This document shows positions 32,448-57,795 of a DNA stretch of 64,000 bases, piece after piece (the first letter of the stretch is position 1; every line of letters begins with the position of its first letter). Both the position numbers and the translations under genes were made by a program. The notes beneath the pieces were generated by a model. The model was not told the DNA's origin and did not search any database. It worked only from the letters and a program-made list of their open reading frames with translations. Origin of the DNA: Candidatus Electrothrix communis (GTDB lineage Bacteria > Desulfobacterota > Desulfobulbia > Desulfobulbales > Desulfobulbaceae); NCBI GenBank assembly GCA_030644725.1, contig CP130629.1, positions 1,652,795-1,716,794 of the forward strand. Direction: 5' to 3'.

Positions 32448-32699
32448 GGGCAATCCCCTGTGATTGCCGTGGTGTTTATGTAGGGGCACGGCGTGCCGTG
32501 CCCCTACGGCCCAAGGTTAAAACCTTGGGCTATGTTCGCTTCGTCCCTCCGGGACGGCCTGTTTTCCCTGTCCCGGAGGGACAACCGATAATAGCCCCGT
32601 GATTTATCACGGGGCAGCATACTGGGGCATTGGTGCCTCCACTAACGGACGCACCCCAAATACATCTTGGCGTGTATCGCCCATACATGCCAGCATATA
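32448..32699. repeat. Cluster of palindromic hairpin repeats
   Basis: Between the TPR gene and the IS66 element lies a dense set of hairpins: a GTAGGGG unit at 32480-32507, an arm pair on cccaagg/ccttggg near 32510-32530, a Pro-like gtccctccgggac with its complement gtcccggagggac near 32553-32584, and gccccgtgat/atcacggggc near 32594-32615. No gene is supported here except the tail of a split minus-strand reading frame that ends at 32607. Confidence 0.7.
32480..32507. repeat. GTAGGGGCACGGC palindrome, copy 2
   Basis: Same core as the repeat at 13981: gtaggggcacggc, a two-base centre, then the complement. It sits among several other hairpins downstream of the TPR gene. Confidence 0.85.
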
Positions 32700-32781
32700 G
32701 TATCCTCTCCAAAATCCAGGGTAGCTAAATAAAATTTTTCAAAGCTTGCAATATGGCTCAATTTATAAGAATATATGCCTC

Positions 32782-33180
32782 ATGAATGCAGATAGTCTGA
32801 AAACCTTACAACAGCTTCATATTGATTTTGACTCACTGCCCGACAATGGGGTGCAGGATAAAATCATGCTGTTGATAAACATCGTTGAGCAGTTAGCCCA
32901 GGAGAACCAAGAACTCAAGGAAACTGTCAAATTGCTCAAAGACGAGAACAACCGTCTCAAAGGAGAGCAGGGGTGTCCGATAATTCGACCCAAAACACAA
33001 TCTGGTGATATTTCATCGGAGTCGGACCGTAAAAAGAAAAAAACAACAAAGCAACCCAAACGGAAAAAACGCAATCTTGTTATCCATGAGAAAAAAGCTG
33101 CCCAGTGGATAAGGAAAAATTACCCGCTGATGCTGTACCAAAAGGACACGATACCGTTGTTGTTCAGGATATTATTATAG
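32782..33180 (+). CDS. IS66 transposase, 5' part (frame 1)
   Basis: N-terminal part of the IS66-like transposase, starting at MNADSLKTLQQ. A leucine-rich coiled coil (about residues 30-65, LAQENQELKETVKLLKDENN) is followed by a basic Lys-rich linker (KKKKTTKQPKRKKRN), as in family members that bind their ends with this region. The useful sequence ends at the A6 run (33091-33096), where a -1 shift enters the frame of the DDE domain. Beyond that point this frame reads a short tail that does not match the family. It is either the pre-frameshift product or the result of a one-base loss. Confidence 0.8.
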   Translation: MNADSLKTLQQLHIDFDSLPDNGVQDKIMLLINIVEQLAQENQELKETVKLLKDENNRLKGEQGCPIIRPKTQSGDISSESDRKKKKTTKQPKRKKRNLVIHEKKAAQWIRKNYPLMLYQKDTIPLLFRILL

Positions 33181-34436
33181 AGGTGAAAAACACCGCCTTT
33201 AAGCGGGAAGTCTATTATTCAGCATCAGAAAACCGACGAATCATCGGCGCATTACCCATTGAATATCAAGGTGGTTTCGGCCCCGGCATCAGGACATTGG
33301 TCCTCTGCTTATATAATGACTCCAACATGAGTCAGCCTAAAATCCATAGCTTGTTGCAGACAGTCGGTGTTGAAATCTCACCAGCAACAATTTCTCGCAT
33401 AATAACAGACGATGTTACCTGTTTTCACGACGAAAAATCTGAAATTGTCTCGGCTGGTCTTCAAGCAACGAATTATCAGAATGCTGATGATACCAGTGCT
33501 CGTGTCAATGGCGCCAATTTCTACAACCATGTACTCTGCAGCCCCTATTATACAGCATATTTTACCAGAGCGAAGAAGAATCGCCTGACTCTGCTGGAAA
33601 TATTCAGTGAAGGCGAATTGACCTTCCAGCTAAACTCGCAAACCATTGAACTGTTAAGTGACTTTAACCTGTCTGAAAAACAGCGGCAACGTCTGACACC
33701 ATTTTTAAGTGAACGCATAATGGAGCGTTCTGAAATGGATGCTTTGTTGAGTAGGCTGTTTCCTGACCCTGGCAAACAGAAAACGAATCGTCAACGCATT
33801 TTGGAAGCCTGTGCTGTGACAGCGTTTCGTCATCAGGGCCGCCCGTTTCCGATCCTTATCTGTGATGATGCCCCTCAGTTTAAGGGGATCACCGAACATC
33901 TTGGTCTATGCTGGGTCCACGAAGGCAGGCATTACAAGAAACTGCAGCCGTTCATGGAAAATAATCGCGAGAAACTGGCAAAAGTGCTCAGTGACTTTTG
34001 GGATTATTACCATTGCCTGCGGAGCTATAAAGAGGCTCCCTCCAAGGCTGAAGCTGAACGTCTTTCCGAGCAGTTCGACACCTTATTCCTGCAAACAACA
34101 GGCTATGATCAGCTAGATGACCGTTTACGGAAAACATGGGCCAAGAAGGATAATCTTCTGCTTGTCCTGCAATATCCGCACATTCCTTTGCATAATAATT
34201 CTGCGGAACTTGGTGCCAGAGTTCAGGCACGAAAACGGGATGTCAGTTTCCAGACGAAAAACGAAAAAGGGACTCAAGCAAAAGACACCATGATGACTGT
34301 GGTCGAAACTGCAAAAAAAATGTCGGTCAATGTGTTTGAATACATCCATGACCGTATCAGCAAAAAGTACGAAATGCCCTCCTTGGCATCCATCATTTCA
34401 TCTCAATCTCAGCATACTGCTTCCGACCCCGCCTGA
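33096..34436 (+). CDS. IS66 transposase, catalytic part (after -1 shift)
   Basis: DDE-domain part of the IS66-like transposase in the -1 frame relative to the 5' part. It continues the family sequence as CPVDKEKLPADAV right after the A6 slip site. Candidate catalytic residues are the Asp in QNADDTSARV (about residue 127 from the GTG at 33105), the Asp pair in LICDDAPQF and the Glu in NNSAELGAR. The enzyme would cut and paste the element at its 26-bp ends. With no independent start that includes the CPVDKEK segment, its production depends on frameshifting or a re-initiation at an internal GTG. Whether the element is active is not known. Confidence 0.85.
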   Translation, partial: SCPVDKEKLPADAVPKGHDTVVVQDIIIEVKNTAFKREVYYSASENRRIIGALPIEYQGGFGPGIRTLVLCLYNDSNMSQPKIHSLLQTVGVEISPATISRIITDDVTCFHDEKSEIVSAGLQATNYQNADDTSARVNGANFYNHVLCSPYYTAYFTRAKKNRLTLLEIFSEGELTFQLNSQTIELLSDFNLSEKQRQRLTPFLSERIMERSEMDALLSRLFPDPGKQKTNRQRILEACAVTAFRHQGRPFPILICDDAPQFKGITEHLGLCWVHEGRHYKKLQPFMENNREKLAKVLSDFWDYYHCLRSYKEAPSKAEAERLSEQFDTLFLQTTGYDQLDDRLRKTWAKKDNLLLVLQYPHIPLHNNSAELGARVQARKRDVSFQTKNEKGTQAKDTMMTVVETAKKMSVNVFEYIHDRISKKYEMPSLASIISSQSQHTASDPA

Positions 34437-34643: not shown

Positions 34644-35669
34644 ATGGAGAACGATGCAGTGACCAAGCAAATCCTGCAAGGTACCAAAAAAGCAGGAAAA
34701 GAATACTCCTTCCATGCCGTTGAAGAATATGACCCGAACAGACCAGCACAATGGTGGTTTCAGGAGTCCAACGAAGGGCTGATCATCTTTGTTGTGTTTT
34801 ATTCCCAGGCATGCAGGTGGGCCCGCTGCCTCGGATGCAATCTACCCTCCAAGATGTCTGTTGAGCATATTCCTTTTGATTCCCTGATCAAGCAGATAGA
34901 CCACCTGTTCAGCCTACCTGAAATTACTGAACGGTCCTCCGCAATCAGCAAAATGATTGTTTCCAATAACGGTTCTGTGCTGGATGAAGCCACCTTTTCC
35001 TCAACCGCCTTAATGTACCTCCTGGCCCGGGTGAACATGCAGTTCCGTGCTCTGAAAGTACTGGCGCTTGAGTCCAGGCCGGAATATGTTGACACGGTTG
35101 AACTCAAATTCCTGGCTCGGGCACTGCAAGAGGGAGAAAGAGCCACAGCTCTTGAACTGTGTATAGGCTTTGAGGCTTTTGATGAACATATACGTAATGA
35201 TGTCTTTGACAAGGGTCTTTCTCTACATACCTTTGAACAGCTGGCGCAAAAAATATCCCCTTACGGTTATCGGCTGAAGTGTTATTTTATGCTGAAACCT
35301 GTCCCCGGAATGAGCGACAGCGAAGCAATCGAAGATATTCGGCAGGCCATTGATTATCTTGATGCAATCAGTTCAAAATACAATCTTGCCGTTAATATGC
35401 ATCTCAATCCGACCTATGCGGCCCGTGGTACCCTCCTGGGCAAAGCCTTTCTGCGGGGAGAATATATTCCTCCCACTCTGCTGGATCTCGCGCAGGCGGC
35501 AGGCTCTGCAAAAGGAAAGAATATCTCTGTCTTTCTCGGACTGTCCGATGAAGGACTTGCCGAGCAAGGGGGCTCTTTTATCCGGGAAGGGGATGAAAAC
35601 CGGTTAAAACATCTGGAAGAATTCAACCGAACGCAGGATTACACTCTTTTGCAAGAGTTGCATTCGTAA
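34644..35669 (+). CDS. Radical SAM protein, RaSEA/TIGR01210-like
   Basis: Radical SAM enzyme of 341 residues. The iron-sulfur cluster ligands are probably Cys57, Cys62 and Cys65 in ACRWARCLGCNLPS, a Cx4Cx2C spacing instead of the classical Cx3Cx2C. Other segments such as ALESRPEYVDTVELKFL and ELCIGFEAFDEHIRNDVFDKGL match the Elp3-like core of the archaeosine-linked RaSEA/TIGR01210 proteins, as far as I can recall. In archaea RaSEA acts with ArcS in making archaeosine on tRNA; the role of bacterial relatives is not established. It stands alone, just downstream of the IS66 insertion, and no tRNA-modification partner is seen. Confidence 0.75.
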   Translation: MENDAVTKQILQGTKKAGKEYSFHAVEEYDPNRPAQWWFQESNEGLIIFVVFYSQACRWARCLGCNLPSKMSVEHIPFDSLIKQIDHLFSLPEITERSSAISKMIVSNNGSVLDEATFSSTALMYLLARVNMQFRALKVLALESRPEYVDTVELKFLARALQEGERATALELCIGFEAFDEHIRNDVFDKGLSLHTFEQLAQKISPYGYRLKCYFMLKPVPGMSDSEAIEDIRQAIDYLDAISSKYNLAVNMHLNPTYAARGTLLGKAFLRGEYIPPTLLDLAQAAGSAKGKNISVFLGLSDEGLAEQGGSFIREGDENRLKHLEEFNRTQDYTLLQELHS

Positions 35670-35817: not shown

Positions 35818-37554
35818 ATGTTGACAAAAAATGTGCGGCAACTCCTTATGATGACTCTAACGACAGCAGCCTTTATCGGCCTGTCAGGAACTTCCTTTGC
35901 CGTGCAATACGTCAAAGCCCCACCTCTTGCCGAGGCGGTCAAGGCGAAGGTTCAGGATGTCAAAAGCGGCGGAGCCGTGCAGGTGCCCCTGATTACCTGG
36001 GGGGGAGACATTGCCACCATCCTTGCCAACGGCAACAGCCGGAACACTGCCGCAGGTTCAATTTTCGCCAAGCAAAAGCTGAAACTCAAACTCACCCGTA
36101 TAGATGATTTCAAACAGCAGGTCGAAGCCTATATGCAGGGCGAAACCCCGTATCTGCGCGGCACTATGGGCATGGTCAATATGGCGGCCGAACTGCTGAA
36201 CCGTGACCCGCGCACACAACCGATCATTATCTACCAGATGACCTGGAGTAACGGCGGTGACTGTCTGGTGGTGAAGCCGGGTATCAAGTCAGCCGCTGAT
36301 CTGAAAGGAAAAACCATTGCCCTCCAAGCCTACGGCCCTCATGTTGACTATATTGCCAAACTGCTCCGCGATGCCGGTCTGAAGATGTCGGATGTCAACA
36401 TTAAATGGGTGAAAGACCTGACCGGCACAGACAACACCCCTGCCGAAGCCCTGAACACCAAGGATGTTGATGCGGCCATGGTCATTATTCCGGACGGCCT
36501 GATGTTGACCTCCAACGGTTCCGTGGGCACCGGTTCGGAAGGCTCGATAAAGGGGGCCAAGATCATGCTCTCCACCAAGAGCGCCAACCGCATTATTGCG
36601 GACGTATATGCGGTACGCAGTGATTATTTCGCAGCCCATAAAAAAGAGGTCCAGAATTTTGTGCATGGCCTTCTCCTGGCTGAACAGGACGTGAAAGCGC
36701 TTTTTAAAAGCAAACAGGCCCGGCTTGCCGACTATAAAAAGACCGTTACAGCTGCTGCTGAGATCCTGCTGGACAGTGCCGCCGCAACCGCAGATGCCGA
36801 GGCCCTGTACGGGGACTGTGAATATGTTGGTTTTCAAGGAAATGTGAAATTCTTTACAGATACAAACTGGCCGCGAAATCTGCACCGCCTCAGTGATGAA
36901 GTACAGGTTTCCTTTATCACCGGCGGCCTGCTGAGCCGGAAGATCTCCCTTCAACCGGCGGCCTGGGACTACAACGCACTCCGCAAAGGTTTAACCGGGG
37001 TTGATGACGTTGAAGCACCCAAATTCAACACCAAAGCGGTCGCCCAGGTGGTGGCAAAAAAGCAAAACCTCGGTACCCTGGATGAAGGGGAGCTCTTTTC
37101 CTTTGAGGTTTTTTTCAAACCCAACCAGAACAGCTTTTCAGCGGATCAGTACAGTGATGCCTTTACCAAGGTTGTTGATCTGGCATCCACCTACGGCGGC
37201 GCGGTTATCATCGTGGAAGGACATTCCGACCCCATGGGATATCTGCGCAAGATCAAAGAAAAGGCATCGGATATCGTGTTGACCAGGACAAAACAGGCCG
37301 CAAAAAATCTCAGTCTGACCCGAGCAATTGCGGTGCGAGATTCCATTATGGCGTACAGTGCCGGAAAAAACGTCAACCTCGATCCCAGTCAGTTCACCGT
37401 CATGGGGCACGGTATCATGCAGCCCAACACCGGTATGTGCGGCCAGTTGCCCTGTGCTCCCAAAGCCAAAGAAGAATGGCTGAGCAATATGCGGGTTGTC
37501 TTCCGCATCATCCAGATCGAGGCTGAGGAAAACGCCTTCATTCCCTTGGATTAA
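35818..37554 (+). CDS. Substrate-binding protein fused to an OmpA domain
   Basis: Exported 578-residue fusion. A signal peptide covers about residues 1-28 (cleavage near SFA). Residues about 50-400 form an NMT1/SsuA-like periplasmic binding domain (VPLITWGGDIATILANG, KSAADLKGKTIALQAYGPH, EALNTKDVDAAMVIIPDG). The last 140 residues are an OmpA-like peptidoglycan-binding domain with FEVFFKPNQNSFSADQ, VEGHSDPMGYLR and LSLTRAIAVRDSIMAYS. It would be tethered to the cell wall and offer a ligand-binding lobe, not feed a permease. It opens a tight run of five genes ending in TelA. The ligand is unknown. Confidence 0.8.
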   Translation: MLTKNVRQLLMMTLTTAAFIGLSGTSFAVQYVKAPPLAEAVKAKVQDVKSGGAVQVPLITWGGDIATILANGNSRNTAAGSIFAKQKLKLKLTRIDDFKQQVEAYMQGETPYLRGTMGMVNMAAELLNRDPRTQPIIIYQMTWSNGGDCLVVKPGIKSAADLKGKTIALQAYGPHVDYIAKLLRDAGLKMSDVNIKWVKDLTGTDNTPAEALNTKDVDAAMVIIPDGLMLTSNGSVGTGSEGSIKGAKIMLSTKSANRIIADVYAVRSDYFAAHKKEVQNFVHGLLLAEQDVKALFKSKQARLADYKKTVTAAAEILLDSAAATADAEALYGDCEYVGFQGNVKFFTDTNWPRNLHRLSDEVQVSFITGGLLSRKISLQPAAWDYNALRKGLTGVDDVEAPKFNTKAVAQVVAKKQNLGTLDEGELFSFEVFFKPNQNSFSADQYSDAFTKVVDLASTYGGAVIIVEGHSDPMGYLRKIKEKASDIVLTRTKQAAKNLSLTRAIAVRDSIMAYSAGKNVNLDPSQFTVMGHGIMQPNTGMCGQLPCAPKAKEEWLSNMRVVFRIIQIEAEENAFIPLD

Positions 37555-37566
37555 GGAGGAATAATC

Positions 37567-38367
37567 ATGAAAAAACTCTTATGCACATATGCTGCCGCCC
37601 TCCTCATTCTGAGTGTAGTTCTCAGCGGATGCGGCGAGGATGCTGATCAGCAGAACGCCTCTGCCCCGCAACAGCAAAAAAACGTTGCCCAACAACAGAA
37701 GATTCCTGATCCTTTTGAAAAGACAACGGATGCATCTACCTGGCCGCCGTCAGCGAAAAAGGAGGCGAATATCCTGCCTGCCGACCAATGGAGCCGGAAA
37801 AATTATGTGATGATTTTTGACGGCTCAGGCAGTATGAGCGAACAACGCTGTTCCGGTAATAAAACAAAAAGCACAGTGGCCAAAGAAGCAGTGGCGGACT
37901 GGGCCCAGTCGGTTCCTGCTGATGCGAACCTGGGGCTTATCGTCTTTGATCAGCAGGGCTTTTCTGTTCGCCTGCAACTCGGTCAGGGCGACCGACAGAA
38001 ATTTATTCAGCAGGTGCAGGCGGTCGTGCCGAATTCCGGTACGCCGTTGACCCAGGCTGTCCAGACAGCCTATGAGATTCTCACGGCCCAGGCTGGCAAA
38101 CAACTGGGCTACGGTGAATATCATATGGTGATCGTCACTGATGGCGTGGCCAATCAGCCGGAACAGCTGACCAGAACAGTCAACGCGGTACTGGCCCGTT
38201 CCCCGATCATCATCAGTACCATCGGCTTCTGCATTGCCGACACCCATTCACTGAATCAGCCAGGACGAACAATCTACAAGGCTGCGGATAATCCAGAGGC
38301 TCTTCGTCAGGGCTTGCAGGATGTGCTGGCTGAATCCGAGTCCTTTGATGATATAACGGAGTTCTGA
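37567..38367 (+). CDS. VWA-domain lipoprotein
   Basis: Lipoprotein of 266 residues. The signal ends in the lipobox LSGC (Cys22), followed by a Gln/Ala-rich linker. A von Willebrand A domain occupies about residues 78-255: the MIDAS motif is DGSGSMSE near residue 84, followed by a conserved Thr in SGTPLTQAV and an Asp in VIVTDGVAN. Such domains bind Mg2+ and mediate protein contacts. It starts 12 bases after the binding-protein/OmpA gene and 32 bases before the next one. The combination with TelA recalls Ter-type stress loci, where VWA proteins are frequent, but the lipoprotein form and the OmpA fusions are different. Confidence 0.85.
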   Translation: MKKLLCTYAAALLILSVVLSGCGEDADQQNASAPQQQKNVAQQQKIPDPFEKTTDASTWPPSAKKEANILPADQWSRKNYVMIFDGSGSMSEQRCSGNKTKSTVAKEAVADWAQSVPADANLGLIVFDQQGFSVRLQLGQGDRQKFIQQVQAVVPNSGTPLTQAVQTAYEILTAQAGKQLGYGEYHMVIVTDGVANQPEQLTRTVNAVLARSPIIISTIGFCIADTHSLNQPGRTIYKAADNPEALRQGLQDVLAESESFDDITEF

Positions 38368-38399
38368 ACAACATATCAGGAACTGAGCGAAGAAAAAAT

Positions 38400-39971
38400 A
38401 TGAGTAAAAAGATAACAGGCGCGCTCCTCCTGCTGGTGCTCGGTGCCGGTGTATTGGTCGGTATAAAACTGCTTCTGCCGGGTTTTATAGATGAGCAACA
38501 AGTGAATACCAGCGATGCCGTCAAGATCAAAGGCAAGGTCAGGCTCGCCCTGGATAACTGGATAGGGTATTTTCCTCTACGCTCCAATGAGATGAAAACC
38601 CTGATGCGCCGTGGTGGCTGGAATCTTGTCTGGACAGATGATAAGGCCGATTACCGGGCACGTATGGAGCAGCTGCAAAAGGGAGAAATAGATATTGCGG
38701 TGGCCACAGTGGATTCCTACCTCCTCAACGGTGCTGAGTTCAATTTTCCCGGTTCCATCATAGCGGTGCTTGACGAGTCCAAGGGCGGTGACGCCATTGT
38801 AGCCCGAAAAAAACAAGCGGAAAGCCTTGACAGCCTGAAAGGGAAAGACGGTCTAAAAATCGCCTTTACCCCGAACAGTCCCAGTCATTTCCTGCTCAAG
38901 GCGGCAGCTGATCATTTTAATGTGCCGGAACTGCTGCCGACGCAAAAGAACAAGAGGATTGAGACCGAGGGTTCCGAAGGTGCCTTAAAAGCGCTGCTGA
39001 AAGGCAAAGCTGATATTGCCGTGCTCTGGGAACCTGATGTCTCTAGGGCACTTGCGGAAAAAGATATAGTCAAGCTTCTGGGAACAGAGGATACAGCACA
39101 GCTCATTGTTGATATCCTGCTGGTTAGTCGGGATTTCATGCAGGATCAGCCGGAAGCTGTGGAGGTTCTGCTCCGTTCCTATTTCAAGGTGCTGAAAAAA
39201 TACAGGGACAACCCGGATCTCCTCAAAGAACATGTGGTGGAGGAAACAGGACTTCCTGCAAAGGCTGCGCAGGCCATGCTGCAAGGCGTGCGCTGGGCCT
39301 CTCTCCTGGACAACTGTGAACAATGGTTCGGTATTGCACAGCCCGGTGGACAGGCACAGGAAAAAATCAGTGACACCATAGAATCCGCAGCAGCGACCCT
39401 GGTGAATGTCGGTGATTTCAGCTCTTCGCCGGTGCCGGATCAGAACCCCTACCGGCTGGTAAAAAGTTCCTTTCTCCAGGACCTGTATACAAAGGGGATA
39501 GGCAGCGGCTTCACTAAACCGGGTGCAGGGGCCTCAGCTCAGGGAACGGATTCGCTGACCGCCCCGTTCCCGCCGCTGGAGACTAGGGCCTGGGAGAGAA
39601 TGCGAGAGGTGGGAACCCTGAAAATTCAGCCGATTATCTTCCAACACGGTTCTTCAAAGCTTGATCTATTTGCTGAAGAGGTGCTGGAAAAGGTTATCTC
39701 TCGCCTAAAACATTATCCGCATTTTAGAGTGTTGGTGAAAGGGCACACTGGTTTACGGGGAGATCCCGGGCAGAACAAAGCCTTATCGCAACAGCGGGCT
39801 GACAGCGTTGCCGCTTTTCTCCAGAAAAAATTCCGCATTGATTCGAACCGGATCCGAGCAATCGGATACGGTGCTGATCATCCCCTGCAGCAGTTGCCCG
39901 GAGAGTCAAAGCGGGCTTATGAGCACCGGCTGCTGCGGGTAGAGATTGTTCTTGTTCGTGAGGAGTTCTGA
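38400..39971 (+). CDS. Second substrate-binding/OmpA fusion
   Basis: Exported or anchored protein of 523 residues. A single hydrophobic segment near residues 5-28 is uncleaved-looking. Residues about 43-330 are an ABC-type binding fold (VRLALDNWIGYFPL, YRARMEQLQKGEIDIAVATV, LKGKDGLKIAFTPNSPSHFLL). A Gly/Ser-rich linker leads to an OmpA-like domain (about 405-520) with VLVKGHTGLRGDPGQNKALS and QQRADSVAAFLQKKF. It is a diverged counterpart of the gene at 35818, sharing domain order but not close sequence. It starts 32 bases after the VWA gene and ends five bases before the next gene. It may sense a periplasmic ligand from a wall-bound position. Confidence 0.8.
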   Translation: MSKKITGALLLLVLGAGVLVGIKLLLPGFIDEQQVNTSDAVKIKGKVRLALDNWIGYFPLRSNEMKTLMRRGGWNLVWTDDKADYRARMEQLQKGEIDIAVATVDSYLLNGAEFNFPGSIIAVLDESKGGDAIVARKKQAESLDSLKGKDGLKIAFTPNSPSHFLLKAAADHFNVPELLPTQKNKRIETEGSEGALKALLKGKADIAVLWEPDVSRALAEKDIVKLLGTEDTAQLIVDILLVSRDFMQDQPEAVEVLLRSYFKVLKKYRDNPDLLKEHVVEETGLPAKAAQAMLQGVRWASLLDNCEQWFGIAQPGGQAQEKISDTIESAAATLVNVGDFSSSPVPDQNPYRLVKSSFLQDLYTKGIGSGFTKPGAGASAQGTDSLTAPFPPLETRAWERMREVGTLKIQPIIFQHGSSKLDLFAEEVLEKVISRLKHYPHFRVLVKGHTGLRGDPGQNKALSQQRADSVAAFLQKKFRIDSNRIRAIGYGADHPLQQLPGESKRAYEHRLLRVEIVLVREEF

Positions 39972-39976
39972 ACACT

Positions 39977-40840
39977 ATGCCGTTTTCTGATCATCAAAAA
40001 AATAATGAACCCGCACGGCTTCCCACTCTGGAGGATTTTTCCGGTCGGGCGGTAAAAAAAGCCGTGCAGGCGGAGAGCCTGTTTCATCCGGTTTCTCTCT
40101 ATTCCTCTTCTCTTGGCCTGCTTTCCGGCCTGGGCTGGTATCTTTTTGACATGTCCGTACTGGGGGCCGGAATGGGGGTTCTGCTCTGTCTCGGTGCGGG
40201 CACGACTGTTGTGAATATGTTTTTCCGGCGCGATATCATTGCCCGGCAATATCTTGACCGACTTTCCGCCCGCTTTGCCAAGGAACGGGCCGGGCTCCTC
40301 CGGACGATCAGTACTGATCTAGAAAAATGCTCCCATATCAAAGGAGCGGAACAGTACGGCAGACAGGCTCAGCAGCAATCGGTCTTTATTAAAGAAAAAT
40401 ACGATAAATTCCGGACAATGCTGGACCAGAAGCTCAAACGCGGTGAGCTGACCTATGCCCGCTTTCTCGGAGCTGCCGAACAGGTCTACCTGGGTGGGCT
40501 GGATACCCTGCGACAGGTTGTTGTCCTGCTGGAGAGCGTGAGCACCATTGATCCAGACTATATTGCCCGGCGGCTTGCTGAACTTGAGCGGGTTGCCGCC
40601 CCGGATTCAGCAGATGAGCGGGAACATGCCACCCTGAAAAAACGGCTGGAACTGATGGAAGAGCAGCTGAGGCAGGTGAACAGTCTGCTCACGGATAACG
40701 AGGAGTCCATGACCATTATGAGTCAGAGCATAGCCACGGTCGCGCAGATGCGTACTGGCGGTGATCTGGCCTCTATGGATATGGAAACAGCCATGGAGAA
40801 TCTCCAGGAGATTGCCAGCCGCCGCTATCATACCGAGTAA
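39977..40840 (+). CDS. Coiled-coil membrane protein, XpaC-like position
   Basis: Protein of 287 residues with a hydrophobic pair near residues 45-90 (SLGLLSGLGWYLFDM and LGAGMGVLLCLGAGTTVV), then a long helical region with heptads (about 105-285), including LEKCSHIKGAEQYGRQAQQQ and LKKRLELMEEQLRQVNSLL. In many bacteria TelA is preceded by an XpaC-type membrane protein with the same layout, so this gene fills that slot, although the sequence match is not clear. It begins five bases after the OmpA-type gene and 75 bases before TelA. It could couple periplasmic input to TelA in the cytoplasm. No enzyme motifs are seen. Confidence 0.6.
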   Translation: MPFSDHQKNNEPARLPTLEDFSGRAVKKAVQAESLFHPVSLYSSSLGLLSGLGWYLFDMSVLGAGMGVLLCLGAGTTVVNMFFRRDIIARQYLDRLSARFAKERAGLLRTISTDLEKCSHIKGAEQYGRQAQQQSVFIKEKYDKFRTMLDQKLKRGELTYARFLGAAEQVYLGGLDTLRQVVVLLESVSTIDPDYIARRLAELERVAAPDSADEREHATLKKRLELMEEQLRQVNSLLTDNEESMTIMSQSIATVAQMRTGGDLASMDMETAMENLQEIASRRYHTE

Positions 40841-40854
40841 AGGAATAATGAACC

Positions 40855-40880
40855 GCCCCGCCGCTGCTGACCGCCGGGGC
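40855..40880 (+). promoter_or_regulatory. Hairpin between the membrane protein and TelA genes
   Basis: A stem of gccccg (40855-40860) with cggggc (40875-40880) lies in the 75-bp gap before telA. There is no following T-run, so it may be an mRNA-stability or weak attenuation hairpin rather than a terminator. Confidence 0.4.
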
Positions 40881-40915
40881 AGATAACCGATGTTTTGTAG
40901 ACAAGGAGACCTGAG

Positions 40916-42130
40916 ATGGATACCCGGACGAATACAGCAATGACCCTGCCCACTGCTTCAGACCTGAAAAATGAGCTTGCATTTCCTGATCCGCAGGCGC
41001 TCACCGCAACAGAAGGGGAAGATAAGGATATTGAAGAGGCGGCGGAAAATTTTGTTACTGCGGTGCTGGCCTTTGATCCCAATGATCCACAGCAACAGAA
41101 CACCCGTGATGCCAACATTGCGGCAGTGGAAACGCTCGGCGGAAAAACACAGCAGGAGGCGTCGCACCGCAGTGCCATGCTTAAGCAGCCCATTCGCTCC
41201 TTGGCCGCAAAAAGCGATGACGGCGGTGAGGTAGCCCGTTCTCTTGTTGAGCTGAATATGCAGGTTGATGAGCTTGATCCGGGGAAATTCGATTTTGAAG
41301 CGGGCTGGTTCGGTCGCCTTTTGGGTATGATCCCCGGTTTTGGTACACCGCTGAAAAAATACTTTATCAAGTTTGAGCAGGCTGATACGGTTATTGACGC
41401 CATTGTCCGTTCTTTGAAAGAGGGCAAGGACCAGCTCGGCAGGGATAATATGACCTTGGTCGGAGACCAGAAGGCCATGCGCGGTTTCACTTTTCGTCTG
41501 GAAAAAACAATAAAGCTAGGTATGCGGATTGATGATCGGCTGAACTACGCTTTAGAGCGTGAAGTCGATCCGGGTGATGCCAAGGCGTCGTTTATCCAGG
41601 AGGAACTTCTCTTCCCGTTACGGCAGAGAATTCAGGACCTCCAGCAGCAATTAGCGGTCAACCAACAGGGAGTACTCGCCATTGAGCTCCTTGTTCGGAA
41701 CAATAAGGAACTTATCAAAGGGGTCGACAGAGCGATCAACGTGACAGTGAATATGCTGACCGTGGCCGTCACTGTCGCCTTGGCGCTTGCTAACCAAAAA
41801 ATTGTCCTGGAAAAAATTGATGCAATCAACAAGACAACCAATAGGCTGATTGAGGAGACCGCTGCCCGCCTGAAAACCCAGGGCGCGGCGATACAGAAAC
41901 AGGCGGCCAGCACCCAACTCAGTATGGAATCCCTGACCAGAGCCTTTGCGGATATTAATGCGGCCCTGGATGACATATCCACCTTTCGCAAGGAATCCCT
42001 GCCCGTTATGGCTGAGAACATATTGGCTATGGATCAGATGACCTCTGAGGCGGAAGATCGGATTAAACAGCAGGAGCAGGGGAATCAGGCCGCTCCCTCA
42101 ATTGAGCTTGATTTTACCGGGCCTGTTTGA
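40916..42130 (+). CDS. TelA-family toxic anion resistance protein
   Basis: TelA-like protein (PF05816) of 404 residues, close to the typical 380-400. The family features are the helical core RLLGMIPGFGTPLKKYFIKFEQA, then ELLFPLRQRIQDLQQQLAVNQQG with AIELLVRNNKELIKGVDRAINVT. The mid-C-terminal helices (LKTQGAAIQKQAASTQ) and the ALDDISTFRKESLP segment also match. TelA was first linked to tellurite resistance, but its broader role in envelope stress is unresolved. It closes the five-gene locus with two binding-protein/OmpA fusions and a VWA lipoprotein. A strong ribosome-binding site (aaggaga) precedes the ATG. Confidence 0.9.
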   Translation: MDTRTNTAMTLPTASDLKNELAFPDPQALTATEGEDKDIEEAAENFVTAVLAFDPNDPQQQNTRDANIAAVETLGGKTQQEASHRSAMLKQPIRSLAAKSDDGGEVARSLVELNMQVDELDPGKFDFEAGWFGRLLGMIPGFGTPLKKYFIKFEQADTVIDAIVRSLKEGKDQLGRDNMTLVGDQKAMRGFTFRLEKTIKLGMRIDDRLNYALEREVDPGDAKASFIQEELLFPLRQRIQDLQQQLAVNQQGVLAIELLVRNNKELIKGVDRAINVTVNMLTVAVTVALALANQKIVLEKIDAINKTTNRLIEETAARLKTQGAAIQKQAASTQLSMESLTRAFADINAALDDISTFRKESLPVMAENILAMDQMTSEAEDRIKQQEQGNQAAPSIELDFTGPV

Positions 42131-42466: not shown

Positions 42467-42721
42467 TTGAGCCGAAAAGAGAAATTGGCGGCAAAATTAC
42501 TGGATCGTAACAGAGACATCACCTGGGATGAATTGACCGTTCTGCTGCAATATCTGGGATACCGTGAAACGAAGAAAGGAAAGACAGGAGGCTCGCGAAG
42601 ACGGTTTGTCCATGAATCCGGTTCAGTAATTACGTTGCACAAGCCGCACCCTCGGAATGTCATCAAAAAGTATGCGGCAGATCAGGTTATAGAAATTTTG
42701 CATAAGGAAGGACTGCTATGA
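42467..42721 (+). CDS. hicA: HicA-type mRNA interferase toxin
   Basis: Small 84-residue protein of the HicA toxin family, which cleaves mRNA unless held by HicB. The C-terminal part shows the family core: a Gly-Gly-Ser segment followed by RRRFVH, then VITLHKPHPRN with the likely catalytic His. The start is TTG at 42467, supported by aggagg six bases upstream. It overlaps hicB by four bases (ATGA at 42718-42721), the standard coupled arrangement. Like many HicA loci it lies in an accessory region next to other mobile-associated genes. Confidence 0.85.
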   Translation: MSRKEKLAAKLLDRNRDITWDELTVLLQYLGYRETKKGKTGGSRRRFVHESGSVITLHKPHPRNVIKKYAADQVIEILHKEGLL

Positions 42722-43077
42722 AAGACATGATACGTTATAAAGGATATCTGGGCTCTGTGCATTACAGTGACGATGATCAGGTCTTTTACGGAAAATTGGA
42801 ATATATAAAAAGTCTGGTCAACTATGAGGGCACGGATGTCGTCGGTTTGCGGCAGGCATTCCATGAGGCGATTGATGATTATCTGACCCTCTGCGCGGAA
42901 GAAGGCTTGGAGCCCGAGCGTCCTTTTAAGGGGAGTTTCAATGTGCGGACAGGCTGTGACCTCCATCGCAGGGCTGCTCTGTATGCGCTGGAATGCGGTT
43001 CGAATCTCAACAAGGTTGTTACAGAGGCGTTGGAGCAATATCTTCCGACGCATTCGCCATGCAGCAATTCGGATTGA
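42718..43077 (+). CDS. hicB: HicB-family antitoxin
   Basis: Antitoxin partner of HicA, 119 residues. The N-terminal half (IRYKGYLGSVHYSDDDQVFY) is the partial RNase-H-like HicB fold. The C-terminal segment (FNVRTGCDLHRRAALYALEC and SNLNKVVTEALEQYL) is a ribbon-helix-helix DNA-binding domain. It should neutralise HicA and repress the operon. It overlaps the toxin by the ATGA stop/start. Confidence 0.88.
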   Translation: MKDMIRYKGYLGSVHYSDDDQVFYGKLEYIKSLVNYEGTDVVGLRQAFHEAIDDYLTLCAEEGLEPERPFKGSFNVRTGCDLHRRAALYALECGSNLNKVVTEALEQYLPTHSPCSNSD

Positions 43078-46450: not shown

Positions 46451-47344
46451 TCAATCCCGCCCGCTCTCCTCCCTGGTCAGGGTCTGAAACGAATCAGGAT
46501 GCTTCAGGTTGAATTCATGGGCATGCTGGAGAAAATCAGGGTCAAAACCTTCTCTGCGTATACAATCAATCAACTCGGTAAATTCCTTACTCTGTTTCAC
46601 CGCCGTGCTGCTCACGGTGTCGGGCAGCTGATAATCCGCTGTGATCTTCGCCCCTCGATTGACCTGACCGCCGCTTCCCCGATCATCAGTATAATACTGG
46701 GATAATACAATAAGTCTCGTACCAAGAAAAGCGGCTTCTGCCAGATCATGGGTGACAAAAAAGACGGTCATCTTCTCCTGCTCCCAGAGTTCCATCAGAA
46801 ACAGCTGCATATCCTCTCTGGTGTCCGGATCAAGAGCACCAAAGGGTTCGTCCATGACCAGAATTTTCGGCTTCATGATCAGGGACTGCCCGATAGCCAC
46901 CCGCTGCTGCATCCCGCCTGACAGCTCATGGGGATATTTATTGCCATGCTCGGCCAGCCGGATTTTCTCCAGCATCGCCGTTGCCTCATCTTGAATTTCT
47001 TTGCCCGACATCTCCTTTGATCCCGGTCGTCCGCCGAGCCGCAGGCCCATGCTCACGTTATCCAGCACGGTCAGGTGGGGAAAAAGAGAATATCTCTGAA
47101 AAACAATCCCTCGATGGATGTCGGGCGGCCCCACGCTTTCCTGTTCGAGCAGAACTCGGCCTGCCGTGGGTATCTCGGCCCCGACTATCAGCCGCAACAG
47201 GGTTGATTTCCCACAGCCGCTGGGTCCGACCACCGTGCAGAATTCCCCCCTGCTGACCTGAAAATCAATATTATCCAGGATCACCTTGCCGTTATATTCC
47301 TTGTACACATCGATAATTTGGAGAAAACCGGACTGAGAACTCAT
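46451..47344 (-). CDS. ABC transporter ATP-binding protein (NitT/TauT type)
   Basis: ATPase subunit of 297 residues. Walker A is GPSGCGKST, the signature is LSGGMQQRVAI, Walker B is ILVMDEPFGALD, and the switch His lies in FVTHDLAEA. It would power uptake through the permease encoded at 47341, which it overlaps by four bases. The family serves nitrate, sulfonates, taurine, aromatics or urea-linked substrates. Its C-terminus has an extra helical tail. The last gene in the leftward operon is this one, since the binding protein and permease lie upstream. Confidence 0.9.
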   Translation of the reverse strand: MSSQSGFLQIIDVYKEYNGKVILDNIDFQVSRGEFCTVVGPSGCGKSTLLRLIVGAEIPTAGRVLLEQESVGPPDIHRGIVFQRYSLFPHLTVLDNVSMGLRLGGRPGSKEMSGKEIQDEATAMLEKIRLAEHGNKYPHELSGGMQQRVAIGQSLIMKPKILVMDEPFGALDPDTREDMQLFLMELWEQEKMTVFFVTHDLAEAAFLGTRLIVLSQYYTDDRGSGGQVNRGAKITADYQLPDTVSSTAVKQSKEFTELIDCIRREGFDPDFLQHAHEFNLKHPDSFQTLTREESGRD

Positions 47345-48204
47345 TTATTACCTCCGCTGGCGGCATACCAGGGATAAAAACAACTCATTATATGGCGAAG
47401 CAGCCAGTCCATCACAAAACCCAAAAAGGTTATCCACAGCACATAGGGTAAAATCACATCCATAGCCAGATAGCGGCGCACCAAAAAAATCCGGTATCCC
47501 AGGCCGCTGCTGGCGGCAATGGCCTCGGCCGCGATAAGAAAGAGCCAGGCCGAACCAAGGGAAAGCCGAACCGCCTCAATGAGCCTGGGCATAATCTGGG
47601 GCAGAATAATCCGATAGGCGAGCTGAAACTGAGAGGCACCCAGGGTGGCGGCCTTAGTCAGCTGTTCATGGGGGAGTTTATAGACCGCCAGCCGGATATC
47701 CCTGGTGATCAACGGAAAAATCCCGAGAAAAATCAGCACGATTTTTGCCGCTTCATCCACGCCGAAACTGATAAAGAGGATGGGAAGAACAGATAGCGGG
47801 GGAATCATGGAGATAAAGGTGATAAACGGATTCAGGGCCGCATTGATGCCCGGAAACAGGCCTATATTAAGACCGAGCAGGAGAGCTGTAAGAGCGGCAA
47901 GTCCTGTACCGATAAGCAGACGTTTCATGCTGGCAAGGGTGTCGTTCAGCATCAGATAGCTGCCGGTCCGGCGATTTTTCTCAAAGGCCATATGCTTGAC
48001 CGCAGCAGTCATCTGAGAAATCTTCGGCAAGAGCTTATCCGCCGGATTATCCCTATGGCGGATTTCCGAGGCACCCAGATAGACAACCAGCAGAAGAGCA
48101 AAGGGCAGCACCGCCAGCACGATGCTGAACACCTTGCCGGGCCGGGCGTGAATCCCCAAAAAACGGGGCGGTTTTCGTGTGGGTTGTTCCGGTGTTTTTG
48201 CCAC
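47341..48204 (-). CDS. ABC transporter permease (NitT/TauT type)
   Basis: Inner-membrane permease of 287 residues with about six hydrophobic segments and the cytoplasmic EAA loop ATLGASQFQLAYRIILPQIM (about 190-210). This is the BPD_transp_1 fold of SsuC/TauC/NrtB proteins. It overlaps the ATPase gene by four bases and follows the binding protein gene after a 159-bp gap containing a palindromic repeat. Substrate specificity comes from the binding protein, which looks like the urea-linked group. Confidence 0.9.
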   Translation of the reverse strand: MAKTPEQPTRKPPRFLGIHARPGKVFSIVLAVLPFALLLVVYLGASEIRHRDNPADKLLPKISQMTAAVKHMAFEKNRRTGSYLMLNDTLASMKRLLIGTGLAALTALLLGLNIGLFPGINAALNPFITFISMIPPLSVLPILFISFGVDEAAKIVLIFLGIFPLITRDIRLAVYKLPHEQLTKAATLGASQFQLAYRIILPQIMPRLIEAVRLSLGSAWLFLIAAEAIAASSGLGYRIFLVRRYLAMDVILPYVLWITFLGFVMDWLLRHIMSCFYPWYAASGGNK

Positions 48205-48273
48205 GACAGTTCTACTCCCTGCTGTTGCGTGTTAGGTTGCCTGTTTATGATGATGATTTTTTTTCGGGACGCT

Positions 48274-48353
48274 GTAGGGGCAGGTCCCCGTGCCTGCCCG
48301 GTCCGATTCGGTCTTCCGGGAAATTCAGGGCGAACACAGGGGTTCACCCCTAC
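48274..48353. repeat. GTAGGGG compound repeat, long form
   Basis: An 80-bp unit beginning gtaggggcaggtccccg and ending ttcacccctac, so its outer seven bases are inverted. It contains cgtgcctgccc and ggcgaacacagg segments also found at 61570. It lies between the permease and the binding protein genes. Confidence 0.8.
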
Positions 48354-48363
48354 GACACATCCC

Positions 48364-49425
48364 CTACTGCATATATTTTGCCGTAAAACGAAGCTTGATA
48401 TTGTTTTTATCGCCCAGCACAGAGCCGTCATCAAAGGCGATACCCACGATATCCGCCGAAGGGGCGGACTCGCCGTAGAGACCTTTTGCATAGGAAAACT
48501 GGCGAACCTGCTCCATAGTCTCTTTCGGCTTTGCTGATGCGGCAAAAGCGGCGGCATCTGCGGCCTTGTAGAACATGGCTGTAGTCGCGAGCTGCTGCTT
48601 AAATTCTTCAACCGTGCCGCCGGAGGCCTGGGCCATAGAGGCGATAGCCTCTTCTTTTTTCGGGCCGTCGCTCTCCATGATCGCCATAACTTCGTACCAG
48701 GCACCCACCAAGGCTTTTTTCAGCGCTTCCGGCGCATCGGATCGGACAACCATCAGGTCGATAATCTCACCGGGAATGCTTGAGGAATCAAAGACCCGTA
48801 CCGATCCGGGGGCCCGCAAGGCCTGCATCAGGGGCGGGTTCCAGGTGACGGCGGCACCTTCGGGATCAGCAGTAAAAAGAGCTGCGATATCCGCATCGCT
48901 GGTATTGATCAGTTTGACATCCTGTTCGCTCATGCCGTTCATATCCAGGGCCCTGGCCAACAGGTAATGGGACACGGAAAGTTCCACCAGAGTGATCGGG
49001 CGTCCTTTCAGGTCTGTTATCTTTGTCCCCTTTTTCATGATAATACCGTCGTTGCCATTGGAAAAATCACCGACAATCACGGCGGTCGAGTCAATTCCTC
49101 CCACTGCGGGGATAGTCAGGGCATCCATATTGGTCATGGTGCAGGCAGCAAATTTCCCTGTGGTATAGAGATTGATAGACTCAATATAATCATTAACCAA
49201 GGTCAACTCGATCTCAATATTATGCTTATCCGCCCATTTCTTGAGAATACCGCTCTGTTGGGCATATCCCCAGGGCTCCCAGCCAGCGTAATGCGACCAG
49301 GCAATATCGAATTTCTCTTTTTTCTCCGCTGCCTGAAGCGGGGAAATGAAGAAAAACACAGCGGAAAGGACGACAGTGGCTGTAAGCAGCACGACTAGTG
49401 ACTGATGTTTCATCGGATTCTCCAT
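48364..49425 (-). CDS. Periplasmic binding protein, putative urea-type
   Basis: Exported protein of 353 residues with a signal peptide (about 1-33, ending near LQAAE). The mature start KFDIAWSHYAGWEPWGYAQQ and the segment TMTNMDALTIPAVGGIDSTA match the binding proteins that occur with urea carboxylase or related amide-using operons (TIGR03427 as I recall). It would capture a small nitrogen or amide substrate for the permease and ATPase downstream. No urea carboxylase or urease gene is in the window, so the substrate remains open. A possible ATG at 49410 would shorten the signal region. Confidence 0.85.
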   Translation of the reverse strand: MENPMKHQSLVVLLTATVVLSAVFFFISPLQAAEKKEKFDIAWSHYAGWEPWGYAQQSGILKKWADKHNIEIELTLVNDYIESINLYTTGKFAACTMTNMDALTIPAVGGIDSTAVIVGDFSNGNDGIIMKKGTKITDLKGRPITLVELSVSHYLLARALDMNGMSEQDVKLINTSDADIAALFTADPEGAAVTWNPPLMQALRAPGSVRVFDSSSIPGEIIDLMVVRSDAPEALKKALVGAWYEVMAIMESDGPKKEEAIASMAQASGGTVEEFKQQLATTAMFYKAADAAAFAASAKPKETMEQVRQFSYAKGLYGESAPSADIVGIAFDDGSVLGDKNNIKLRFTAKYMQ

Positions 49426-57480: not shown

Positions 57481-57608
57481 GGCAAACCTTAGTTAACTAA
57501 GCGGGTGCCTTACTTTCCGGTCGGAAACGGAAAGTTGATAAAGCCACAGCCGTCGCGAGGCGGTGTCGGAAAGCCACGGGTCTCCAGGAAGGAGACAGCC
57601 GGGTTGCC
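57481..57608 (+). ncRNA. Structured leader, GEMM-like riboswitch candidate
   Basis: The ends pair: ggcaaacc (57481-57488) with gggttgcc (57601-57608). The 3' half, from ggaaagccacggg to agccgggttgcc with a gtctcc/ggagac stem, matches what I recall of the P3 side of cyclic-di-GMP-I (GEMM) riboswitches in Geobacter-like bacteria. A stem capped by a GCGA (GNRA) loop lies at about 57549-57566. An extra hairpin (actttccg/cggaaagt) and the change of ACGCAAAGCC to TCGGAAAGCC do not fit the consensus. It may be a variant cyclic-dinucleotide riboswitch, another ligand-binding RNA, or a structured leader of another type. Confidence 0.5.
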
Positions 57609-57795
57609 TGCTTTTACCTGTAACCTCTATCGGGAAGTATGTTATGAAAACTCTATTCTATTCAAGTACTTTTTCACTCGTATCGGCACGTCAGCATCGC
57701 CGCCCCCCCCCAGCCTTTCGCACCGCACCGGGCTTCTCATTGATATTTCGTTCTTTCAACCTCTCCTGAAACCATAGCAATAAGCAAAAAACATC

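Follow-up and report, generated by a model that had tools for sequence, protein, structure and literature searches.

Two binding-protein/OmpA fusions, a VWA protein, a membrane protein and TelA in Candidatus Electrothrix communis: a conserved gene set that looks like the control device of an ABC importer

What brings together, in one run of five genes, two solute-binding-protein (SBP) domains fused to OmpA-like domains, a von Willebrand factor A (VWA) protein, a membrane protein and a TelA family protein? The genes, named here A to E, lie in a stretch of 64,000 nucleotides of Candidatus Electrothrix communis (assembly GCA_030644725.1, contig CP130629.1, positions 1,652,795 to 1,716,794 of the forward strand), hereafter the window. 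They belong to a larger set that recurs in many phyla and looks like an undescribed device by which an importer is sensed or controlled. Tentatively, with a probability of about 0.42, A to E are interpreted as the accessory half of an eight-gene, envelope-spanning and ligand-controlled ATP-binding cassette (ABC) importer, the other half being a binding protein (S), a permease (P) and an ATPase (T). Computed results cover the eight parts with the fold or family of each, their paralogy, the conserved gene order, the linkage and the correlated divergence.

Conservation of the locus and its linkage to an importer

A preceding reading of the sequence alone described five genes in one orientation with gaps of 12, 32, 5 and 75 bp, which the coordinates of the open reading frames (ORFs) bear out. 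Their order, which would have spoken against the earlier proposal had it been unique to the window, reaches well beyond it. Related loci (labelled L; genomes are labelled G) were gathered with gene A alone, by means of an alignment of A and two peptide patterns, and the best 80 of 90 confirmed places were retained. A-B-C-D is found in 47 of the 54 loci that extend at least 5.5 kb after A and A-B-C-D-E in 35, three of which (L096, L098, L099) carry importer genes between D and E. The carriers, as titled in the records, come from about ten phyla: Desulfobacterota (including Electrothrix and Electronema), Gamma- and Betaproteobacteria, Acidobacteria, Verrucomicrobia, Poribacteria, Spirochaetes, Elusimicrobia, Aminicenantes, Bacteroidetes and others; the candidate-phylum records (Parcubacteria, Sungiibacteriota, Niyogibacteria) are few and may be mis-binned. 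Motilimonas eburnea and Desulfogranum japonicum are examples of carriers in culture. Within the genus, A is present in six of eight genomes, the window's own included. A-B-C-D-E is kept in all eight loci from relatives, L044 to L051 (five from the genus, two from the family and one from the phylum), the locus of G305 having extra genes or gaps within the row. Note that the two sets of loci overlap in the same contigs (L053/L044, L066/L048, L067/L051, L108/L049, L107/L050) and are not independent. A search of the phylum with P0003 yielded mostly single-domain OmpA or SBP proteins; among the matches listed, coverage of the whole protein was found only in the window genome (G000) and in G252. What is supported of the earlier proposal, with an order kept far from the window, is a set that spans the envelope, has TelA on its inner side and carries, on its outer side, binding proteins resembling sensors or tethers.

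The earlier reading connected no importer with the fusions. A full ABC importer nevertheless often belongs to the set, so that they do not stand apart from a permease. When the neighbours were clustered, about 35 loci proved to have a binding protein together with permease and ATPase. Among the 49 loci that extend at least 8.5 kb after A, an S-type gene is found in 33, a permease in 30, an ATPase in 32 and all three in 27; the count takes in the full length of each fetched locus, and some few of the clustered ATPases and binding proteins are others (for example in L116 and in the first set of L095). S and P occur together in 31 loci and in 29 of them share the strand of A, often with gaps of tens of bases (exceptions: L103, L107). 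All eight genes stand in one run, T-A-B-C-D-E-S-P, on two annotated Vibrio plasmids, out of six Vibrio records that C matched with a coverage of 80% or more. Their products are named, in this order, ATPase, "OmpA family" or "nitrate ABC transporter substrate-binding", VWA, "phosphate ABC transporter substrate-binding/OmpA", hypothetical, "toxic anion resistance", "putative urea ABC transporter substrate-binding" and permease.

S of the window exceeds the cut-off of TIGR03427, a family known from guanidine-carboxylase operons (483.4 bits, and 485.1 in a second scan, against 333.9), and T has a carboxyl-terminal tail that is common to the ATPases of the system and was not seen in three ATPases from guanidine contexts. 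In 14 of the 18 carrier genomes that lack S at the fetched locus, a TIGR03427 protein over cut-off is encoded elsewhere, two of them beside a urea carboxylase. Among 297 genomes of the phylum only three hold a TIGR03427 protein: two have the locus and the third, G018, has a urea carboxylase. The distances of the eight genes correlate in all 28 pairs (r 0.58-0.89), a result reached by 0 of 300 permutations, which fits a single unit.

Table 1. Genes of the five-gene locus and of the importer, and other features of the window (lengths in amino acids, aa)
Feature	Position	Strand	Description
A	35818-37554	+	578 aa; signal peptide (by eye), type-2 solute-binding-protein domain, C-terminal OmpA-like domain
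B	37567-38367	+	266 aa; VWA, metal ion-dependent adhesion site (MIDAS) D85, S87, S89, T159, D192; lipobox
C	38400-39971	+	523 aa; N-terminal membrane helix, type-2 solute-binding-protein domain, OmpA domain
D	39977-40840	+	287 aa; two hydrophobic segments and helical part
E	40916-42130	+	404 aa; TelA family (PF05816), predicted cytosolic
S	48364-49425	-	353 aa; free periplasmic binding protein; TIGR03427
P	47341-48204	-	287 aa; permease, BPD_transp_1, TauC/SaoP-like
T	46451-47344	-	297 aa; ATPase with C-terminal tail
Importer, whole	46451-49425	-	S, P and T
Small gene pair	42467-43077		between TelA and importer; last gene of HicB family (PF05534)
Radical-SAM gene	34644-35669	+	directly 5' of A; RaSEA-like (TIGR01210, 118.4 bits, under the cut-off of 212)
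Two overlapping ORFs	32746-34436		by eye, IS66-type transposase in two frames
Acido-Lenti-1 RNA	32569-32614	-	38.7 bits (threshold 37)
c-di-GMP-I riboswitch	57533-57611	+	57.8 bits

Some neighbours of the locus recur. Proteins of about 340 aa of the radical-SAM kind lie near 7 of the 80 loci according to the clustering of neighbours, and an AAA+ ATPase of about 490-600 aa (cluster c6) lies near 15 of the 80 (L082, L071, L108, L117, L118 and others), often divergently upstream of A. The nearest relatives of the AAA+ protein of L082 are FtsH, Cdc48 and proteasome-activating ATPases, all under the cut-offs. In the Electrothrix aarhusensis assembly (L107/L050, G300) A is split in two ORFs, and in L107 D as well, while B, C and E are whole; this is either decay or sequencing error.

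Proteins of the locus

The amino-terminal regions of A and C had been set beforehand as the test of whether the fusions carry binding folds. They do in the AlphaFold2 models (mean pLDDT 92.0 for A from a 57-sequence alignment and 89.3 for C from a 58-sequence alignment), whose folds are TauA-like: the best Foldseek match in the PDB is, for both, the taurine-binding protein TauA (6ssy; E 1.8e-12 for A and 9.8e-16 for C). Pfam and NCBIfam give NMT1/SsuA-like and OmpA matches in both proteins. In Pfam, A passes the NMT1 cut-off (9.8e-8), its OmpA match staying below threshold (3e-4, 21.5 bits against 27.2), and C is over the cut-off for OmpA (1.1e-17, 64.6 bits) with a Phosphonate-bd match at 4e-7. 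The two align over 413 columns with a profile probability of 98.3%, and this alignment runs through the OmpA part, which supports the OmpA domain of A. Profile comparison with S gives 97.6% for C and 97.0% for A. By these profile alignments A and C are full-length paralogues whose binding domains are distant homologs of S.

Both fusions had been described as bound to the cell wall, which is presumed for A, while C is not simply a wall-bound protein. The Asp and Arg of the classical OmpA domain bind the diaminopimelate of peptidoglycan. A keeps the Asp (Asp471 in the window) in 57 of 57 aligned proteins and the Arg in 56, its signal peptide reads by eye as cleavable, and it is presumably a wall-bound protein of the periplasm. 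C retains the Arg in all 58 proteins, but its Asp is replaced in every one by Gly, Ala, Ser or Asn; it begins with a long helix (residues 3-37 of the model), and the amino terminus is strongly hydrophobic in 57 of the 58. The binding domains share with S the invariant motif S-x-G-x-D and a late Asp, and C also shares S-x-S and W-x-P with S. At the place of S-x-S, A has G-P-H (invariant in 57/57), and at the place of W-x-P, as aligned through C, it has I-x-P-D (I and D in 57/57). Alignment position and invariance make these motif residues putative pocket residues, and A, judged by its two deviating motifs, probably binds another ligand than S.

B matches VWA_2 in Pfam (4.6e-10) and has a complete MIDAS (DxSxS...T...D), with all five residues in 7 of 7 aligned B proteins and the pattern in 71 of 76. 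Its description as a VWA lipoprotein is right for the window but not for some relatives, which have a plain amino-terminal membrane segment instead. Among the 76 proteins a lipobox was recognised in 29, a hydrophobic segment without recognised lipobox in 38 and neither in 9; the 29 are a lower bound, as starts were called mechanically and the pattern misses some lipoboxes. Relatives with the plain segment, such as those of L071 and L080, suggest that B sits at the inner membrane.

D gave no family over cut-off in Pfam or NCBIfam; two hydrophobic segments are found in 47 of 51 D proteins. The hint that D is of XpaC type was not sustained, there being no Pfam match and a profile probability of 3.9% against an XpaC profile that is narrow (8 close sequences). 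E matches TelA, in Pfam only (1.4e-70, 238.5 bits against a cut-off of 30). The window genome codes for a second TelA (G000:C1:3002826-3004711; L052 6827-8739) that adjoins a genuine XpaC (PF10112, 7.2e-14). TelA is missing from the fetched stretch in 12 of the 47 A-B-C-D loci, and in four of these (L116 15093-15929, L117, L118, L124) D is followed, where TelA would stand, by some 276 aa of a coiled-coil protein without named family, so that A-D appears to be the core and TelA an exchangeable output or scaffold. Profile comparison finds no homology of the coiled-coil protein to TelA. By eye it resembled PspA, a candidate assignment dropped after Pfam gave only a weak CENP-K match and the PDB nothing. 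Profile searches of the PDB matched neither D, nor TelA, nor this substitute.

Ligand, proposed operation and competing explanations

The context of TIGR03427 proteins points to guanidine. One lies beside a urea (guanidine) carboxylase in L157, L159 and G018, and a guanidine-I riboswitch is found just upstream of the importer in L158 and L159; none was present in the fetched stretch of L156 or L157. The importer of L158 (6929-10796), of TIGR03427 type, stands after the guanidine-I riboswitch and adjoins an agmatinase-family gene rather than a urea carboxylase; the region is possibly a guanidinase operon. A review has ABC transporters importing guanidine in such organisms, TIGR03427 not being named there (PMC12186494). 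The S motif residues are identical in 9 of 9 aligned proteins (5 from the system and 4 from other contexts), and a guanidinium-like ligand is likely by descent. These data, together with the absence of any guanidine riboswitch at gathering score from 11 system sources (the window and ten loci), favour taking S-P-T as a true guanidine importer for nitrogen nutrition, with the five genes as a protein replacement for the riboswitch. Against it, the window genome has no urea carboxylase over cut-off (only partial matches to the biotin-carboxylase and biotinyl parts), and ureohydrolase (PF00491) and urease were not found over threshold. Likewise, 8 of 19 carrier genomes, several of those searched being incomplete assemblies, have neither a carboxylase over cut-off nor a ureohydrolase; one of the eight, G366, has urease. 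It is doubtful that the ligand serves as food in the window's host, guanidine or urea nutrition by known enzymes is unlikely there, and this explanation of the whole set is itself unlikely.

In the interpretation preferred here, S, P and T would make up an importer of the guanidine/urea-carboxylase type. An S-like binding protein with a fused OmpA domain would have been duplicated to give A and C, and these would serve as ligand-occupied sensor or regulator arms, not as the main delivery protein. A would hold to the wall and C would extend towards it, starting at the inner membrane. B, a VWA protein that depends on metal and sits outside on the inner membrane, would couple the two, probably in a ligand-dependent manner. 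D would relay their state across this membrane both to TelA and to T, at its private tail, which would adjust transport and perhaps membrane protection. Ligand binding by A and C, coupling through the MIDAS of B, contact of D and TelA with the ATPase tail, the way in which the signal runs and the identity of the ligand are all inferred. A precedent is given by CmpC and NrtC, since SBP-like domains of related importers, which from the entry titles we take to be regulatory, are among the fold matches of A and C (9uak, 9u9z_C, 8wm7_C). In its most specific form, which is speculative and rather unlikely as a whole, the set would be a transport-coupled sensor: a wall-fixed SBP paralogue and one held between inner membrane and wall would read a guanidinium-like ligand in the periplasm, dock on the VWA protein by its MIDAS-bearing domain and, through D, drive TelA and the ATPase tail. 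The ligand and the state of the wall would then govern both uptake and membrane protection.

Several findings weigh against this interpretation. The contacts among the parts are putative. C could be no more than a further delivery protein; the classical Asp is absent from its OmpA domain. In the window the importer lies on the opposite strand, 4.3 kb off, with HicB-type and other genes between; the small gene pair in this interval is perhaps a HicAB toxin-antitoxin and a mark of rearrangement. The inversion is also found in Electrothrix aarhusensis (L107 is a contig of G300) and, for permease and ATPase, in G299. Of the 18 carriers whose locus lacks S, four do not reach the TIGR03427 cut-off with any protein: G375, G371 and G384 show no match and G382 a single one below it. 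G375 holds L053, whose contig equals in length that of G297, a 97%-complete genome of the window's genus. Such carriers without S weaken the proposal. The row itself is incomplete in seven of the 54 loci (A-B-C in L058 and L077; A-B in L094, L109, L125 and L130; a short A in L126), to which add the 12 loci lacking TelA, four of them with the unrelated coiled-coil protein; moreover, vertical inheritance alone would give the same correlated distances.

In the version of the preceding reading, the importer is a client or a mere neighbour; A, C, B and D could act purely as a chain of sensors, with TelA under their control as the stress effector that protects the membrane. Several loci show A-B-C-D-E without S, P and T in the fetched stretch (for example L066, L091, L100, L112), and G371 and G384, the genomes of L091 and L112, have no S-type gene at all. 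A Listeria TelA mutant is, in the passages of PMC12791056 that treat it, more sensitive to nisin and tellurite, and TelA is said, with the vWA protein TerF, to build sub-membrane structures in Ter systems (part of PMC7824862). A TelA-centred chain is however at odds with the A-B-C-D loci that do without TelA and with the S-type genes kept elsewhere in 14 of the 18 genomes; it is a possible explanation, though an improbable one. Another places the gain in capture: A on the wall and C at the inner membrane would concentrate substrate and pass it to S-P, which would raise uptake when substrate is scarce, on a scaffold made of B, D and TelA. C retains most of the motif residues of S and is, from its model, probably anchored in the inner membrane, but a protein fixed to the wall can hardly dock on a permease, and the different motifs of A speak for a different ligand, so that a capture array has a low probability. 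That the genes are neighbours by chance, or a loose cluster of unrelated envelope genes, is very improbable: the separate and inverted importer of the window's genus would agree with it, but the order is kept across about ten phyla and on plasmids, and both the locus counts and the S-type genes elsewhere in carriers contradict it. A role in anti-phage defence was also considered and rejected, PADLOC giving no defence model that fits A, B, D, E or S. The match of C to ZorB is weak (3.4e-5) and comes through its OmpA domain; T matches mad3 (4.7e-31) and others, taken as the shared ABC ATPase domain; and the AAA protein beside the L082 locus matches IetA (2.7e-24).

Relation to known systems and significance

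All families except that of D are already known and most of the genes have a name at NCBI; the likeness to described systems is partial in each case. The guanidine (urea) carboxylase-associated importer has the same TIGR03427 SBP, the same motif residues in nine proteins and the same order SBP-permease-ATPase. It differs from the present system by the five extra genes and the ATPase tail found here, where moreover no carboxylase is found among the clustered neighbours and no riboswitch in the 11 sources. NrtBCD and CmpBCD are related importers with additional SBP-like regulatory domains (8wm7_C, 9u9z_C, 9uak). Their regulatory domain is cytosolic and fused to the ATPase, whereas the SBP-like parts of the present set are periplasmic, divided between two proteins and fused to OmpA domains. 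A search of the open-access literature found no paper on the regulatory role of the NrtC/CmpC domain. Ter stress loci (TelA, the vWA protein TerF, TerC/TerD/TerB) likewise combine TelA with a VWA protein, but B is extracytoplasmic; TerB, TerC and TerD had no match among the selected proteins scanned, the flanks not having been scanned systematically for Ter genes. In the XpaC-TelA pair, too, a partly helical protein of two membrane segments adjoins TelA; D has neither a Pfam match nor profile similarity to XpaC. Tethers of the MotB/Pal/YfiB type share the OmpA-like domain (matches to Pal, YiaD, YfiB and others) and, with C, the layout of a transmembrane segment followed by OmpA. They differ in that here a binding-protein domain separates anchor and OmpA domain and that C lacks the classical Asp.

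No description of the gene set was recognised in the open-access literature; most subscription papers lie outside it, hence the negative result carries little weight. In Listeria TelA has a known resistance phenotype, but PMC12791056 calls its mechanism unknown. Names such as "putative urea ABC transporter" and "phosphate ABC transporter substrate-binding/OmpA family protein" are not reliable for members of this set. If the wall-fixed binding proteins are sensors, an ABC importer would be controlled from the cell wall, a mode of control of which no description was found. TelA, D and the VWA protein gain a testable partner through their conserved setting beside an importer, one that has guanidine importers as its nearest relatives.

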